DNA of 37,958 nt. Origin: Parcubacteria group bacterium CG1_02_58_44. Lineage in GTDB: Bacteria > Patescibacteriota > Patescibacteriia > SG8-24. The notes beneath the pieces are model-generated. The model saw only the letters and a program-made list of their open reading frames with translations. It did no database searches and was not told where the DNA came from. How positions within the stretch are numbered: the first letter of the stretch is position 1; each line of letters begins with the position of its first letter. The stretch lies in NCBI GenBank assembly GCA_001872545.1, contig MNWN01000008.1, positions 1 to 37,958 on the forward strand. Direction: 5' to 3'. The position numbers and the translations under genes were made by a program. Below, piece after piece: positions 9,016-18,740 of the stretch.

Positions 9016-9395
9016 TTCTGGAATCACGAAGGCAGTGAGCGGTATCCGGGATACGGAGGCCGATCGATCGCTGGATCCCGGATAGACCTCGCTCCGCTCG
9101 GCCTTCCGGGATGACAGAGGGAGTGTTGTCGCCCCGGCCCCCGAGCCGGGACCCAGAAAGCCCTCCTAGTCGCCCCGGACTTGATCCGGGGCCCAGAAGC
9201 AGACTTGCCGGCGCTGGATCCCGGATATTGCTCACCGCATTCGCAATTCCGGGATGACAAGTTAAGAAGGAGAGCGGTTCCGGGATGACAGAGGGAGTGT
9301 TGTCGCCCCGGCCGCCTTCTAAACCTACTGTCGTCCCGGCTGCCTTCTAAACTTACTGTCGTCCCGGGCCGAGACCCGGGACCCAGAAACTGTTA
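9016..9395. repeat. Dispersed palindromic repeat tract 1
   Basis: A run of about eight units built from CCCGGGA/TCCCGGG half-palindromes, for example CCCCGGACTTGATCCGGGGC and GGGCCGAGACCCGGGACCCA. The roughly 40-base unit at 9218-9258 (ATATTGCTCACCGCATTCGC at its core) recurs at 18566-18606 and inverted at 16255-16295. The unit at 9073-9113 recurs inverted at 16493-16531. No coding signal is present. The region 9396-9500 is AT-richer and holds only leader sequence for the sigma gene. Confidence 0.85.
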
Positions 9396-11560: not shown

Positions 11561-14500
11561 ATGCACAACGTTTTAAGAATGAGCAGGAAGGCGTTTACCG
11601 TTGCAGTGGTCGCTGCGACGATCGCCTGGTCTGTCGGATTAGCTGCCCTAGTTGCACCTTTAACGGTCAACGCAGCGGCTTCTGGCGACTTGGTGCGCGG
11701 TTCTCTGCCGGCGGTTTACTACGTCGGCGCGAACGGCAGACGCTATGTCTTCCCGAACGAGAAGACTTACAAGACCTGGTACTCGGATTTCTCGACTGTC
11801 CAAGTTGTGACAGACGCGGAACTGGCGGCTATGCCGATCGGCGGCAATGCCACCTATAAGCCGGGTGTCAAGATGGTTAAGATCCAGACCGATCCTAAGG
11901 TTTACGCGGTCGACGCCAACGGTACCCTTCGCTGGGTCCAGACCGAGGCGCTCGCCACGGAGCTTTACGGAGCTTCCTGGAACACCATGATCGAGGATGT
12001 ACCGGATGCCTTTTTCGTGAACTACACGATCGGCTCCGACATCGCCGCTGCCGCTGATTTTGTCGTCGCTGACGTCTCAGCCGCTGCTACCTCGATCAAT
12101 GTCGATAAGAACATCAGCGCCAGCTCGTCCGCGAGCCTGAGCGTTTGTGCCAGTTCTTCGATGCCAGTTGGTTCGACCCTGCCGAAGGGTGCAACCGGCG
12201 TCAATATGCTGAAGTTTGATGTGGTCAACGGCGGCGCCGATGCCATGACGGTCAATTCTTTGACTGTTCACCGCAGCGGAGCCGGTCAGACGGCCGACTT
12301 CTCCTACGTCTACCTCTATGACGGCAACGTCCGTCTGACGACCGGACGCACGGTGAACTCATCGACTGGCGACTCAGCCTTCAATGGTTTGAGCATCTCC
12401 GTCCCGGCCCACGGCACCAAGACCCTGTGGATCGCCGCCGACCTCGCTACTACAGCGAACTCCGGCAACGTTCACATGCTGTCTTTGACTGACCTGAAGT
12501 ACGGTACGACTTCGGTGAGCGGTCTGCCGGTCTCCGGCCCGCAGTTCACCATGTCGAACGCTTCGTCCGGAACCCTTACGATCACCAAGCAGGGCGCTGT
12601 CCCGCTGTCCAACGTGATGGCTGGCGGTCTCGAGCAGCTGATCGGTAAGTTCCAGGTCGCGGCCGGCACCGGTGAGGACGTTAGCCTCGAGCGCATCACC
12701 CTGTTCCAGGGCGGCGCGGTCAGCACGGCCAACATCACAAATCTTAAATTGAAGCAGGCCAGCACTACCGTGGCTACGGCTGCTGGTTATGACTCGAACG
12801 ACCGGGTGACCTTCGTCCTGGGAACTCCGTTCCTGCTGGAGAAGGGTGCCAATCGGACCTTCGACGTCTACGCCGACATCTCGGCCGGAGCCCGCACGGG
12901 TACCACCGAGACGATCTTGACCTATGTTGATTCCACCACGGACGTCATGGGCGTGGGCCAGACCTACGGCTATGGCGCCAACGTGGACATCGCTTCCTTT
13001 GGCACCTACGACGGCACCAGCTGTGCCCTCGGAGCCGGTAACTGTTCCAGCACTAGGATCGAAGGCAGCACTCTGACCATTACCTTTAATGGTCCGGCCG
13101 CCGCTGACGTCGCTGTTGCCGCCAACGATGTGGAGCTCTATAGCTTCACCATGGCTGCAGCTGCCAACCTGGAGGTTCGGAACCTGCGCATGGCGATCAC
13201 CGCCACGGATGGTGATGTCGGCGTGGACGTTAACGACCTGTACGACAGCACCGACGCGGAGAACAACTACAGCGACATCAAGCTGGTCAACGCCACCACC
13301 GGCGTGACCGTGGCCGGTCCGCTGTCCCTCTCTTACTCGGCTGCTGCGGACGACATCACTCAGACTCTGACCTTCACCGAGACCTTCACTCTGGCCGCCG
13401 GCTCGAGCGAGACCTACAAGGTGACAGCTGACGTTCGCAACAGTGCGGACAACGATGCCGACCGGGTCCAGATCAATCTGTCGGCCTTCCAGAGCAGCGA
13501 CATTCGTAATCTGGACAACAGCACCTACTTGTCGACGACTACCGACATCGTGCCGAACGCCGGCATCAACGGTAATCCGTTCACGGTGCATGCGCCGACC
13601 CTGACCATGGCTGCCGCTTCGAGCCCGGTCGCTCAGACCTACATCAAGGGCAGTAGCAACGTCGCTTTGGGCGGTTACACCTTTACGGCCAACGATGCGG
13701 CTGACATCTACGTCACCAGCATCGCGCTCACGGGTTACATCGACACCAACGACGAGTCCGGTACTTGTACCATCGCCGCTGATGGTGATGGCGGTCTCCA
13801 AGGTATGGAGGATGCTGCTTGTGCCAGCGTGGCCACAGTCGTCCTGACCGCCGGCCTCTGGAACGGAGATACCCAGGTGGGTACAACCAAGAGTCCGTCT
13901 GCATCTTCGGCAGTCAGTACTGGCGGTGTGTTGACCTTCAACAATCTCGGTCTGGTCATTCCGGCCGGCGAGTCGGTCAGTCTGACTCTGAAGGGTAACA
14001 TTTCTGGTGCTTTGGCTACGGCCACTCTGACCGATTTGATCAACTTCCGGATCGCAGCCACAACAGACGTTTCAGCCACCGACCTGAGCGGTAACTCGGT
14101 CACCAAGAGCGGTGTACCACAGGGTTCGACCATGACTGTAGCCGACAAGGGTAGCATCTCGGCCACCTTGGCTCCGGATGATTCCGATACCGAAGCCGGT
14201 ATCGTGGTCGCCAGCACTTCTAACGTGGTTCTGGGCAAGTACAAGTTCACCGCGCTGAACGAGGAACTCAAGGTGACTAAGGCTCGCTTCCACGTCAGCA
14301 CTTCGTCCGATGACTCCATTAGCTCCCTGACCCTGTATGACGGTTCGACCGTTGTCGGCGGTCCGGTGGCCATGCAGACTTCGGGTAATGTGGACTTCTC
14401 TGGCGTCAACTTCGTCATTCCGAAGGACAGCTCCAAGGTTCTGACCGTCAAGGCCAATCTGAACGCTGTGGGCACCGGTGCCGCCGCTTCGGGCAGCAAC

Positions 14501-15610
14501 CTAGCCTTGAGCCTGATGAACACTGCTTCGACCTTCGAGGCCCGCGGTACTGGGTCCGGATCGAGCACACTGATCTCGACGCTTACGTCCCAGGTGGACG
14601 GACGTGCCAAGATCATCCGCAAGTCCAAGCCGACCGTTTCTCTGATGGCTTTGCCTCAGACGGTCCTGACTTCCGGCGATCAGTCGATCATGAGGTTCAG
14701 CGTCGCGGCCGATGCGGCCGGCGACATCTCGTTCAAGAAGCTCACCTTCACTTCGAACGTGACTTCGAACGTGACCTTGGCTGTTACCTCCAACTCGTCG
14801 GTTCGCCGCGTCGGTGACGCCAGCAATCTGGCGGGTCTGGGTGTGGCCAGCGGTGCGGCCTGCTCTGCGGGTACGGCCGATGCCTGTACCATCACAGTTT
14901 ACCTGACCAATGAGGAGGTCATTTCGGCCGGTTCCAGCCGGACCTATGACCTACGCCTCACAGTCGGTGGTGCCTTGGCTGTCGGTGACAGCATCAGCTC
15001 CACGCTGAACGGCGAGTCGTCTGCCTCGGTCGTGACTGGCTTTATTGCCACACGAACGTCTGTATTCACTGTCGGGGGTACGGCTTTTGAAGCTGATGAC
15101 GTTTACACCATCACCAATATCGGAGCCGCACCTAAGGCGATTGACGGTGTCGGTGTCACGGCTGTCACCACGGCTAACGCCATCGTCGATGCCATCAATG
15201 CCGATGCGACCCTGTACTTCAGTGCGGTATCTACCGGTACGACCGGTGTGGTGTACATGTACCCCAAGTCAACTGCCACCTGGGCACAGGCGATGGCGAC
15301 GATTACGGTTGCTACCACCGATGTCGGTGGTGTTGCCGATAACCAGACGGTTTCTCCGGTCACGACTCCGGTGACGATGTACGAGATCGACACGGTCAAC
15401 GATGGTGCTTTGACCACTGACGTCTATACTGCCACCAGTGAGGACGCCGATTCGCACAGCTTTATCTGGAGTGACAACAGTGCTACTGCGCACAGCGATA
15501 CGGCCTTCTTCGTCGATACGTTGGCAGCCAGCATGACTGGTTCGCTAGACTTCACCAACGGCTCCTACGTCAAGATCCTGACCACCGACACTCAGACGAT
15601 GTCTAAGTAG
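11561..15610 (+). CDS. Giant secreted S-layer-like surface protein
   Basis: 1349 residues with a strong ribosome-binding site (AAGGA, 9 bases before ATG). There is a signal peptide at residues 1 to about 40 (FTVAVVAATIAWSVGLAALV). Residues about 45-165 form the CPR-type surface domain: RRYVFPNEKTYKTWYSDF, then KMVKIQTDPKVYAVDANGTL and DAFFVNYTIGSDI. A near-identical domain ends the 17133 protein. From about 195 to 1140 follow roughly seven to eight Ig-like repeats with the pattern (F/V)xxxAxxxEDVxVxxLxx, YDGSTxVGG, VxVPAxxSxTLxVxADxxxxA. Residues about 1150-1349 form a different C-terminal region, ending with the FIWSDNS phrase and TGSLDFTNGSYVKIL. The composition is Ala/Thr/Ser/Val-rich with few Lys and almost no Cys. 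Length, leader and composition fit a main S-layer subunit; self-assembly is inference. Confidence 0.88.
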   Translation: MHNVLRMSRKAFTVAVVAATIAWSVGLAALVAPLTVNAAASGDLVRGSLPAVYYVGANGRRYVFPNEKTYKTWYSDFSTVQVVTDAELAAMPIGGNATYKPGVKMVKIQTDPKVYAVDANGTLRWVQTEALATELYGASWNTMIEDVPDAFFVNYTIGSDIAAAADFVVADVSAAATSINVDKNISASSSASLSVCASSSMPVGSTLPKGATGVNMLKFDVVNGGADAMTVNSLTVHRSGAGQTADFSYVYLYDGNVRLTTGRTVNSSTGDSAFNGLSISVPAHGTKTLWIAADLATTANSGNVHMLSLTDLKYGTTSVSGLPVSGPQFTMSNASSGTLTITKQGAVPLSNVMAGGLEQLIGKFQVAAGTGEDVSLERITLFQGGAVSTANITNLKLKQASTTVATAAGYDSNDRVTFVLGTPFLLEKGANRTFDVYADISAGARTGTTETILTYVDSTTDVMGVGQTYGYGANVDIASFGTYDGTSCALGAGNCSSTRIEGSTLTITFNGPAAADVAVAANDVELYSFTMAAAANLEVRNLRMAITATDGDVGVDVNDLYDSTDAENNYSDIKLVNATTGVTVAGPLSLSYSAAADDITQTLTFTETFTLAAGSSETYKVTADVRNSADNDADRVQINLSAFQSSDIRNLDNSTYLSTTTDIVPNAGINGNPFTVHAPTLTMAAASSPVAQTYIKGSSNVALGGYTFTANDAADIYVTSIALTGYIDTNDESGTCTIAADGDGGLQGMEDAACASVATVVLTAGLWNGDTQVGTTKSPSASSAVSTGGVLTFNNLGLVIPAGESVSLTLKGNISGALATATLTDLINFRIAATTDVSATDLSGNSVTKSGVPQGSTMTVADKGSISATLAPDDSDTEAGIVVASTSNVVLGKYKFTALNEELKVTKARFHVSTSSDDSISSLTLYDGSTVVGGPVAMQTSGNVDFSGVNFVIPKDSSKVLTVKANLNAVGTGAAASGSNLALSLMNTASTFEARGTGSGSSTLISTLTSQVDGRAKIIRKSKPTVSLMALPQTVLTSGDQSIMRFSVAADAAGDISFKKLTFTSNVTSNVTLAVTSNSSVRRVGDASNLAGLGVASGAACSAGTADACTITVYLTNEEVISAGSSRTYDLRLTVGGALAVGDSISSTLNGESSASVVTGFIATRTSVFTVGGTAFEADDVYTITNIGAAPKAIDGVGVTAVTTANAIVDAINADATLYFSAVSTGTTGVVYMYPKSTATWAQAMATITVATTDVGGVADNQTVSPVTTPVTMYEIDTVNDGALTTDVYTATSEDADSHSFIWSDNSATAHSDTAFFVDTLAASMTGSLDFTNGSYVKILTTDTQTMSK

Positions 15611-16196: not shown

Positions 16197-16249
16197 GTTG
16201 GGGATAAAAAGAGCGTCATTCCTCACTTAAAATCTGTCATCTCTCATTC

Positions 16250-16550
16250 AAAATTTGTCATCCCGGAATTGCGAATGCGGTGAGCAATATCCGGGATCCA
16301 CGATCCGATCTTTCTGCTTCTGGGCCCCGGATCAAGTCCGGGGCCACAAGGAGGGCTTTCTGGGCCCCGGGTCTCGGCCCGGGACGACATATATAGAGGG
16401 GGCCCGGGACGACACTCTTAATATGTCATCCCGGACTTGATCCGGGATCCAGAGCTATATCAAAAATTTATCATCTCTCATTCAAAATTTGTCATCCCGG
16501 AAGGCCGAGCGGAGCGAGGTCTATCCGGGATCCAGAAGCTTGCAACGTCG
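16250..16550. repeat. Dispersed palindromic repeat tract 2, left arm
   Basis: Units of the CCCGGG family. They include the roughly 40-base unit at 16255-16295 (inverted copies at 9218-9258 and 18566-18606), a CCCCGG/CCGGGG palindrome near 16324-16344, and the 73-base block 16379-16451. That block is repeated exactly at 16910-16982 on the other side of the GIY-YIG gene. TCATCCCGGAAGGCCGAGCG near 16492 begins the unit also found inverted at 9073-9113. Confidence 0.88.
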
Positions 16551-16584
16551 TCATGGCCCTGCTAAGGATCGGCCATCAGTCTGT

Positions 16585-16881
16585 ATGGGAGAGAAACTCT
16601 ATTACGTCTACATTTTGGCCAGCCAGCGCAACGGCACGCTTTATGTTGGCGTAACTTCAAACTTGATTCGTCGCATTCATGAGCATAGGAGCAGTGTAAT
16701 AGCTGGATTCACCAGAGATTATCGAGTCAAAAAACTGGTCTGGTTCGAAAGCACTAATGACGTCCGTGAGGCTCTCGAATTGGAGAAACGACTGAAACGA
16801 TGGAAACGTAGGTGGAAATTGGAATTGATTGAGGCGAACAATCCAGAATGGAAAGACCTTTTTCAGGAGTGGAGCGCTTAG
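16585..16881 (+). CDS. GIY-YIG endonuclease (UvrC-N / URI-like), embedded in repeats
   Basis: 98 residues from ATG 16585. Upstream in-frame codons are translated repeat sequence, so the ATG at 16489 is rejected. The motif is YYVYILASQRNGTLYVGVTS, the GIY-YIG core as YVYI...LYVG. It is followed by LIRRIHEHRS (Arg and His conserved in the fold) and ALELEKRLKRWKRRWKLELI (catalytic Glu near residue 66). This is the standalone single-domain type that cuts DNA or acts in repair, with no extra specificity domain. Composition is clearly AT-richer than its neighbours. A perfect 73-base direct repeat flanks the gene (16379-16451 and 16910-16982), and only 2-3 bases separate the stop codon from the repeat tract, so it looks like the cargo or driver of the repeat block. 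Confidence 0.9.
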   Translation: MGEKLYYVYILASQRNGTLYVGVTSNLIRRIHEHRSSVIAGFTRDYRVKKLVWFESTNDVREALELEKRLKRWKRRWKLELIEANNPEWKDLFQEWSA

Positions 16882-17056
16882 TTTCTGCTTCTGGGTCCCG
16901 GCTCAGAGGCCGGGACGACATATATAGAGGGGGCCCGGGACGACACTCTTAATATGTCATCCCGGACTTGATCCGGGATCCACGATCCGATCTTTCTGCT
17001 TCTGGGTCCCGGGTCTCGGCCCGGGACGACATATATAGAGGGGGCCCGGGACGACA
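16882..17056. repeat. Dispersed palindromic repeat tract 2, right arm
   Basis: Contains the second exact copy of the 73-base block (16910-16982). A second copy of a 34-base stretch begins at 16973 (first copy 16291-16324). A third copy of the CCGGGACGACATATATAGAG unit begins at 17021. The array thus has a local duplicated structure around the nuclease gene. Confidence 0.9.
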
Positions 17057-17132: not shown

Positions 17133-18392
17133 ATGAGAACAAAACTGATCGCCTTGGCCACCGTCCTGTCGCTGGTCCTGGGAGCCGCACCGGCCCTGGC
17201 CGACACGACGACAGACATCTCGACCTATCTGACCGATACCGAGTACGTCCTGGATGGCCAGACTATGATCGTCAAAGCCGGCTCCGCATACAACTGGATC
17301 TCGGTCAACGAAACCGAACTGGTGGCGCAGATACCGGACCACGAGGCCTTCGAGGTGCGGACCCCGGGCCTCTACCCGTCGTCGATCGAGAACGACGGCG
17401 GTGTGGCGGTCTGCAACGTGATCACCACCCGCGAAAACCGCGTCTTCGTCTACGGTCCGCGCACCGTGACTTTCCATCCGAGAGAAGACCGCTGCACGGT
17501 CGTTGCCTCTGCCTACAGCACCAACACCGCGCCGGAGATCGGTCTTTCCGCTCCAGTCGCCGGGGATATCCTGGTGCCCGGAACTGCGACTACCGTTTTT
17601 TGGTCCACCCTGTCCGGCCGCAATCCGAATGCCGTTCGTCTGCGCCTGTCGACCGACGGCGGCCGGAGCTTCGATACAGTCCTGGCCGACAATTTGGTCA
17701 ACAATGGCTTCTACGTTTGGAACATTCCGTCTGATCTGTCGGCCAGCGAGGCTCGACTTAAGCTGGACGGTTACGATTCCGGCTATATCGTGGCTCTGGC
17801 CGTGAGCGGACAGTTCTCCGTCGGCGAGGCAGCCGCCGAATCCGCTGAAGCCGCCGAATCCGAAGGTGCCTTGGTCTCAGACGACTCGACCGGCAGCCAG
17901 ACCTTGACCTACCTCGGCTACGAACCGATAGTCGCGACGTTCGCCGCGGCAACGATCAGCATCGATCATGGACTGACAGCCGCTGAAGGCCGGACTTCCT
18001 GCATTCCCAACACTCGCCTGAAGTCATTCTCTGATTCCGCCGTCTACTACTGTGGCGTCGACGGAAAGCGTTACGTCTTCCCCAACTTGGCCACTCACCG
18101 CACCTGGTATGACGACTTCGCCGGCGTGATCGAAGTGTCTGACGACCAGCTGGCTCGGGTTCAGCTCGGCGGCAACGTCACTTACCGTCCCGGCATCCGG
18201 CTGATCAAGATCCAGACCGATCCCAAGGTCTACGCGGTCGACGCCGGCGGCACGCTGCGCTGGATCGAGACCGAGGCTGTGGCTGCAGCGCTCTATGGAT
18301 CGAACTGGAATCAAAAGGTAGACGACGTCTCCGATGCTTTCTTCGTCAACTATACGGTCGGCGAGTCGATAGCGGCCGTGACCGCGTCATAA
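17133..18392 (+). CDS. Secreted surface protein with C-terminal S-layer-type domain
   Basis: 419 residues with a clear signal peptide (KLIALATVLSLVLGAAPALA). Residues about 24-130 are unassigned. About 130-225 form an Ig/fibronectin-like domain of the type seen in extracellular enzymes (PVAGDILVPGTATTVFW, LRLSTDGGRSFDTVLADN, GFYVWNIP). An Ala/Glu-rich linker (about 230-250) follows. The last 135 residues match the N-terminal domain of the 1349-residue S-layer protein: KRYVFPNLATHRTWYDDF, then IKIQTDPKVYAVDAGGTLRW and DAFFVNYTVGESI. This copy has a Cys pair (CIPN...YYC) absent from the giant protein. Domain sharing suggests it binds the same partner or lattice. A promoter lies at 17068-17096. 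Confidence 0.82.
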   Translation: MRTKLIALATVLSLVLGAAPALADTTTDISTYLTDTEYVLDGQTMIVKAGSAYNWISVNETELVAQIPDHEAFEVRTPGLYPSSIENDGGVAVCNVITTRENRVFVYGPRTVTFHPREDRCTVVASAYSTNTAPEIGLSAPVAGDILVPGTATTVFWSTLSGRNPNAVRLRLSTDGGRSFDTVLADNLVNNGFYVWNIPSDLSASEARLKLDGYDSGYIVALAVSGQFSVGEAAAESAEAAESEGALVSDDSTGSQTLTYLGYEPIVATFAAATISIDHGLTAAEGRTSCIPNTRLKSFSDSAVYYCGVDGKRYVFPNLATHRTWYDDFAGVIEVSDDQLARVQLGGNVTYRPGIRLIKIQTDPKVYAVDAGGTLRWIETEAVAAALYGSNWNQKVDDVSDAFFVNYTVGESIAAVTAS

Positions 18393-18399
18393 TTGTGAA

Positions 18400-18740
18400 G
18401 CCTAAACCCCGGACGTAAGCCCGGGGAGTGTCATTCGCATCATCTTTTCTCTCAGATTCCCCCTATTTGTCGTCCTAGGCCCTCTACCATGTCGTCCCGA
18501 CCTTCTCAATTTTGTCGTCCCGGCCTCCGAGCCGGGACCCAGAAGTAAAAGAGATCGGATACTGGATCCCGGATATTGCTCACCGCATTCGCAATTCCGG
18601 GATGACAAATTTAAGAAGGGTTGCAGTTCCGGGATGACATACTAAGAAGGAATGCGGTTTCGGGATGACAGATAAATTAAAGTATTGTCGTCCCGGACTT
18701 GATCCGGCTTGCCTACCGTAGCTTTAGCGGAGGTGGGGAC
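18400..18740. repeat. Dispersed palindromic repeat tract 3
   Basis: Repeat units include CCCCGG/CCGGGG (18407-18426), GTCGTCCCGGCCTCCGAGCC and the 18566-18606 unit shared with tracts 1 and 2. Near 18695-18735 a CCCGGACTTGATCCGG unit is interrupted by a second small hairpin family, CCTACCGTAGCTTTAGCGGA, before the usual GGACCCAGAAGC continues. This suggests one repeat inserted in another. No gene is supported here, and 18740-18790 is AT-rich leader. Confidence 0.82.

Follow-up and report, generated by a model that had tools for sequence, protein, structure and literature searches.

Architecture of the locus

The 37,958-nt stretch of DNA considered here, referred to throughout as the window, is contig 41 of the 1.06-Mb draft genome (95% complete) of Parcubacteria group bacterium CG1_02_58_44. 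It carries a small gene for a nuclease of the GIY-YIG family, set within a tract of repetitive extragenic palindromes (REPs), and the subject of this text is the mobile element that gene and repeats probably form. The features of the tract, together with two further clusters in the window, are as follows.

16585..16881, + strand: GIY-YIG nuclease gene, single domain, 98 amino acids (PF01541, E 5.7e-18)
16490..16920, + strand: putative minimal REP-gene-REP unit, 431 bp, delimited by analogy with 410-411-bp paralogous units elsewhere; inner REPs with heads outward
16490..16535, + strand: CGTC-type REP, long-loop form, adjoining the gene start, head outward
16893..16920, - strand: CGTC-type REP adjoining the gene end, head outward
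16256..16301, + strand: CGTC-type REP, long-loop form
16362..16389, - strand: CGTC-type REP
16404..16414, - strand: REP half (head and stem only)
16424..16452, + strand: CGTC-type REP, ACTTGAT loop
16935..16945, - strand: REP half (head and stem only)
16955..16983, + strand: CGTC-type REP, ACTTGAT loop
17004..17031, - strand: CGTC-type REP
16358..16451, no strand: 94-nt direct repeat, left copy (REP, half-REP, REP), 94% identical to 16889-16982, inner 73 nt exact
16889..16982, no strand: 94-nt direct repeat, right copy
16229..16300, no strand: 72-nt direct repeat, 82% identical to 16463-16534, with a long-loop REP in each
9041..9384, no strand: REP cluster without a nuclease gene
18490..18700, no strand: REP cluster without a nuclease gene

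Two exact direct repeats bracket the gene, one of 73 bp (16379-16451 and 16910-16982) and one of 34 bp (16291-16324 and 16973-17006). Both had been reported in an original prediction made from the window, and both hold when checked letter by letter. The 73-mer is the core of the 94-nt repeat that flanks the gene. A third, partial copy is also real, but it starts at 17000, some 20 bases earlier than the predicted 17021. The gene is indeed AT-richer than its surroundings, with a GC content of 45% compared to 60% for the window, and it is the only member of its subfamily in this genome. What had been described as plain “CCCGGG” repeats is a palindromic tract as claimed, but its units are more elaborate, each being a palindrome with an unpaired TGTC head and a CCAG tail, in both orientations.

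Scans of the window for Rfam families and tRNAs gave no match. The open frame of the nuclease runs upstream through the adjoining REP from a TTG codon (16489-16584), and a REP-encoded N-terminal extension of the protein is considered unlikely.

CGTC-tagged REPs

The units of the tract follow the layout TGTC, stem, loop, stem and CCAGAA, as in TGTC-ATCCCGG-acttgat-CCGGGAT-CCA. Judged by their YGTC head, AT-initial stem and CCA tail, the window repeats are CGTC/TGTC-tagged REPs. This superfamily is defined by a CGTC or TGTC head, a stem that starts with AT pairs, an unpaired CCA tail and frequent occurrence as dimers, and its members include dRS3 of Neisseria, RPE-4 and RPE-6 of Rickettsia, and CGTC-4 of Wolbachia (Di Nocera 2013, PMC3733652). 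A dedicated transposase or other mobilizing enzyme for these REPs has been lacking on record since 2013 (PMC3733652).

The head is TGTC throughout the tract, and the stem and tail in the window’s genome are RTCCCGG/CCGGGAY and CCA, respectively. Among the gene-proximal REPs of the survey described below, the first stem position is AT in 96 of 101 and the second is TA in 83 of 101. Short-loop copies have the 4-5 bases typical of the superfamily, while many copies here have loops of up to 24 bases or more. In contrast to the superfamily as published, these longer-loop forms and stems of the ATTGC/ATCCTGA type are counted in, and a nuclease gene is consistently bracketed by the repeats.

A search of the 1.06-Mb genome with the strict pattern GTCRTCCCGG-N3..33-CCGGGAYCCA gives 149 matches, compared to none for the reversed control, which places these dispersed repeats far above chance expectation. 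Many of the 149 copies form close inverted pairs, or dimers. Dispersed REPs were also found in sixteen genomes reached through the survey loci; for example, Sphingomonas Leaf412 has 269 matches versus 24 for the control.

The nuclease

The gene product is a single-domain GIY-YIG protein, and a Pfam scan returned GIY-YIG/T5orf172 matches only, so it belongs to no known transposase class. Residues Y9, Y20, R30, E67 and N86 are invariant in homologue alignments (n=15 and n=33), and H34 is also conserved; the invariant columns are presumably the active site, as equated from I-TevI and UvrC. The AlphaFold2 model (mean confidence score, pLDDT, 88.3) has UPF0213 proteins and Slx1 as fold neighbours, and the closest solved relatives by profile are likewise UPF0213 proteins (PDB 1ZG2 and 1YWL, E 9.9e-9). 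Slx1 is a structure-selective nuclease that cuts branched DNA. No homologue was found in the phage collection searched, and the nuclease is thus not phage-borne there.

A defence region on plasmid p1 of Planktothrix agardhii (L194) contains a homologue whose neighbours are an MmeI-type restriction gene on one side and DISARM drmA on the other, and Sphingobium TomTYG73 (L193) retains a truncated relic where sister plasmids hold a longer gene. A second, more distant GIY-YIG subfamily that is common in Patescibacteria genomes (L057, L058, L060 and L141-L160) is not flanked by REPs.

REPs bracket the nuclease across phyla

The first relatives inspected have the same REP-gene-REP layout with different stems. 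An alignment of 15 proteins was used to gather 80 homologue loci, spanning Patescibacteria, Alpha-, Beta- and Gammaproteobacteria, Nitrospirota, Bacteroidota, Chloroflexota, Omnitrophota, Armatimonadota and others. REPs were located with two detectors, the first requiring the head, a 7-bp stem and the tail, and the second being a 5-bp-stem version. With the first detector, REPs lie on both sides of the gene within 500 bp at 51 of the 80 loci, compared to 0-2 of 80 when the head or tail is altered; their density near the gene is ~20 times that of more distant DNA. With the second, the density of GTC-headed REPs is 4.38 per kb up to 250 bp from the gene and 0.139 per kb beyond that; the values for 12 control heads are near zero, and enrichment at the genes is confined to GTC heads. 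With the detectors combined, REPs occur within 300 bp on both sides at 58/80 loci and on at least one side at 70/80, while positions shifted by 2.5-6 kb have REPs on both sides in 0-2 of 53-66 cases. Inspection by eye shows comparable hairpins at several of the loci missed by the detectors, where the loop is longer or the head altered.

The two flanking REPs resemble each other and are oriented. The first five stem bases of the REPs nearest the gene are the same at 77 of 96 loci, compared to 14.5% between loci. The head points outward in the nearest upstream REP at 41 of 55 loci (41:14, p 4e-4) and in the nearest downstream REP at 51 of 61 (51:10, p 1e-7). When candidates were selected on stem pairs 1-3 only, pairs 4-8 were Watson-Crick in 94-97% of cases near the gene versus 51-57% in distant DNA, even though several positions use alternative pair types (for example CG, GC and TA at pair 6). 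The hairpin is thus preserved through changes in its sequence.

Within Patescibacteria, REPs lie on both sides of 34 of 40 nuclease genes, a set picked from REP-rich genomes with several copies, and of 24 of 29 when only the best match per genome is taken. The flanking repeats noted in the window are thus a general feature of the gene.

Copies within genomes and empty sites

Paralogous copies within one genome indicate what moves. In genome G049, three copies have a common block of ~411 bp with the same right end, and one pair also has the same left end. The alignment of that pair, 80% identical, extends for 411 bp between the outer head CGTCATTCCCGCG and GGGAATGAC, beyond which the flanks diverge, while the third copy has extra upstream sequence, including another REP, in common with one paralogue. 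In G227, two copies on one contig, 4.4 kb apart and with unrelated flanks, are 99.76% identical over 410 bp; the identity begins at TCTC-TGTCATTCCCG and ends at GGGAATGACA, with no more than 4 outer bases in common. For a pair in G264 (71.5% identical), the exact limits are GTC at the start and GAC at the end. The ends of the unit therefore coincide with REP heads within a few bases. From these alignments, in which near-identical paralogues include the REPs as well as the gene, REP-gene-REP appears to move as one unit, as had been suggested for the block in the window. One contig of G227 (C21, L244-L249) holds six copies of the nuclease gene within ~45 kb, at differing stages of divergence.

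Empty sites provide the counterpart. Azospirillum lipoferum carries the gene, with a pair of REPs on each side, between sufB and sufC, while four other Azospirillum have sufB-sufC with neither gene nor REPs. Similarly, an intergenic region that holds the gene together with four REPs in Shinella WSC3-e and HZN7 lacks both in Shinella H4-D48 and S. oryzae. At the window locus, homologues of the two flanking genes are direct neighbours in four relatives (G004, G005, G007 and G009); the nuclease is missing there, and no REP was found between the two genes. The G264 orthologue of an insertion site in G227 is likewise without element or REPs. Gene and repeats are thus absent together, rather than the repeats having arisen separately, and the direction of change at these sites, gain or loss, is inferred. 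Sinorhizobium K101 was rejected as an apparent empty site since the gene is included in its alignment to the Ak57 locus, and the Rhizobium plasmids that cover this locus all have it.

In Shinella (L183 3300-3900, L195 and L196), several hundred bases between the same two genes are conserved and seem not to code for protein; they are possibly a structured RNA. In the window, 11561-15610 and 17133-18392 encode two secreted-looking proteins with a common repeated domain of “YVFPN...TYKTW” type, which has many copies in the genomes of relatives.

REP richness and the nuclease

The association extends to whole genomes. In a sample of 287 genomes of the phylum, with “REP-rich” defined as 10 or more copies of one REP pattern and the nuclease called at E <= 1e-18, the nuclease is present in 37 of 46 REP-rich genomes versus 43 of 241 with fewer REPs (odds ratio 18.9, Fisher p 3e-16 with kinship ignored). 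Permutation within families gives p 2e-4, with 16 families in the expected direction and 4 in the opposite one. Since the REP pattern misses other stem types, nuclease-positive genomes classed as REP-poor may hold other REPs. As a candidate role for the nuclease, the suggested spreading of the repeats is strongly favoured by this correlation.

A proposed mobile element

The block in the window is probably a REP-bounded GIY-YIG mobile element, with inverted, heads-outward CGTC-tagged REPs as its ends and solo REPs as its non-autonomous progeny. The nuclease would then be the strongest candidate so far for the enzyme, hitherto missing, by which CGTC-tagged REPs are spread. Cleavage of the REP and the copying mechanism are inferred, and most likely proceed as follows. 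The nuclease would recognize the folded REP by its head, tail and hairpin shape and cut at or near the YGTC head, after which host repair would copy the unit, or a REP pair without the gene, into new sites. Recognition by stem sequence is disfavoured because stems change in sequence yet stay paired and because the nuclease tree agrees weakly with stem type, and a “lock-and-key” match of enzyme to stem is for the same reason unsupported. Solo REPs and REP dimers would be non-autonomous derivatives mobilized in trans, much as is supposed for REPINs and REP-associated tyrosine transposases (RAYTs). The directly repeated REP tracts that border the gene in the window, Azospirillum and Shinella may result from this mechanism or from recombination between REPs.

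Several points weigh against this reading. Since DNA hydrolysis by GIY-YIG enzymes involves no covalent intermediate, strand transfer depends on host repair. Inspection by eye revealed no target-site duplication in the 99.8% identical G227 pair, which itself comes from a draft assembly of about 50 contigs, and the empty-site comparisons are all between species, with exact junctions beyond their resolution. The nuclease tree carries a weak signal of loop or stem type (16 changes versus a shuffled mean of 20.5, and 35 versus 43), with none within Alphaproteobacteria. Finally, nine of the 46 REP-rich genomes are without the nuclease, and G001, of the same genus as the window’s genome, has 77 REPs by the pattern and no close nuclease; REPs can thus outlive the gene or be served otherwise.

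A broader claim is put forward tentatively and with rather less assurance, namely that these elements may form a separate class: a self-moving unit of ~410 bp with one GIY-YIG gene, two hairpin ends and no transposase, which would spread by structure-selective cutting and host repair and be the origin and spreader of CGTC-type REPs (dRS3, RPE-4/6, “GTCATTCCCGCG...” and “GTCATTGCGAGG...”) across phyla.

Alternative explanations

The strongest competitor, itself unlikely, is a homing-like gene whose nuclease cuts existing REPs or dimers and is copied in by recombination, the REPs being spread otherwise and the nuclease being their parasite. GIY-YIG domains are typical of homing enzymes, some REP-rich genomes are without the gene, and directly repeated REP tracts on its two sides, as in the window, Azospirillum and Shinella, are expected if a donor REP-gene-REP repaired a cut dimer. 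However, the empty sites hold no REP that could have been a homing target, the paralogous units include both REPs and stop at the outer heads amid unrelated flanks, and REP richness accompanies the nuclease.

Alternatively, the gene might be a passenger that merely collects between REPs because these attract insertions or aid recombination. REPs are documented insertion hot spots for some insertion sequence (IS) elements (PMC1525189), yet other candidate passengers in similar genomes are not bracketed: a sister GIY-YIG subfamily, in Patescibacteria genomes of the same set, is flanked by REPs on both sides at 0/23 loci, and Y1_Tnp (IS200/RAYT-like) genes of 12 REP-rich genomes are so flanked in 0/28 cases, with REPs on one side in 5/28. 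The genome set of these Y1_Tnp genes largely overlaps that of the 40 nuclease genes. Intact REPs of consistent polarity on both sides of the nuclease, their joint absence with the gene from empty sites, and the power of the nuclease to predict REP richness likewise run counter to passive collection, which is largely refuted and seems improbable.

Less probable still is that RAYT/IS200-type Y1 transposases mobilize the REPs and the GIY-YIG gene is incidental. Y1_Tnp matches do occur in 12/12 REP-rich genomes tested, including short pieces in that of the window, but the genes are not bracketed, as the above counts show, and the REP heads are CGTC/TGTC rather than GTAG. A 2013 survey likewise did not find CGTC REPs flanking tyrosine transposase genes (PMC3733652). 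As a separate observation, several of the short pieces in the window’s genome (G000:C39:11004-11186, C46:33101-33244, C46:4-144, C28:16555-16692 and C33:6-122) lie at or near contig ends, which suggests that a multi-copy IS breaks this assembly.

Finally, it is scarcely credible that the REPs are ordinary terminators or mRNA-stabilizing hairpins by which a small selfish gene happens to be bordered. Palindromes near gene ends can serve as RNA elements (PMC3733652), but the REPs here occur upstream as often as downstream, head outward and within tens of bases, Y1 genes and shifted positions are without them, and an unpaired GTC head is required for the enrichment.

Comparison with known systems

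The proposed element shares features with several known systems. Free-standing GIY-YIG homing endonucleases of the I-TevI type have the same catalytic fold, active-site residues and patchy distribution. Unlike such genes, the nuclease was found with no intron, intein or NUMOD domain, and where a homing gene has a single cognate allelic target within an intron, intein or adjacent gene, the copies here lie at unrelated loci bounded by REPs. Terminal inverted repeats, a hallmark of ISs, are matched by the inverted REPs that bound the 410-411-bp copies at several loci in related genomes, while a known transposase class is missing. The element is therefore neither a homing gene by location nor an IS by enzyme.

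Single-domain UPF0213 proteins are nearest to the nuclease by profile and fold, and the more distant GIY-YIG genes of Patescibacteria are without REPs on both sides. Slx1, as a fold neighbour, offers in its branched-DNA cutting a plausible chemistry for a hairpin substrate; it differs in being eukaryotic, working with Slx4 and not being mobile, and the similarity is by fold alone.

The closest parallel is the RAYT/TnpA-REP “REPtron” (Bertels and Rainey 2011, PMC3116915; Corneloup 2021, PMC8266576). In both systems, a small enzyme gene lies between inverted palindromic repeats, the repeats are also dispersed, often as dimers (REPINs), a conserved unpaired head adjoins the hairpin, and repeat and enzyme co-occur in genomes. 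The REPtron differs in having an HUH Y1 tyrosine transposase between its REPs, rather than a hydrolytic GIY-YIG nuclease, and a GTAG rather than a YGTC head, and in the present case the unit itself occurs in several copies per genome. The likeness to REP/RAYT logic that was drawn for the window thus appears apt, given the general REP flanks and a unit that moves whole, with an unrelated enzyme in the transposase’s place. No paper linking GIY-YIG nucleases with REPs, REPINs or dRS3 was found in a literature search that left preprints and most subscription papers uncovered.

CGTC-tagged REPs are widespread dispersed repeats of bacteria, and a nuclease of 90-100 residues between two REPs is a concrete candidate for their mobilizer, testable at low cost in cultured Azospirillum, Shinella, Sphingomonas, Bradyrhizobium and Kangiella. 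If the proposal is correct, a hydrolytic nuclease can drive a repeat population, and the repeat-plus-enzyme arrangement of RAYT REPtrons arose twice, with unrelated enzymes.
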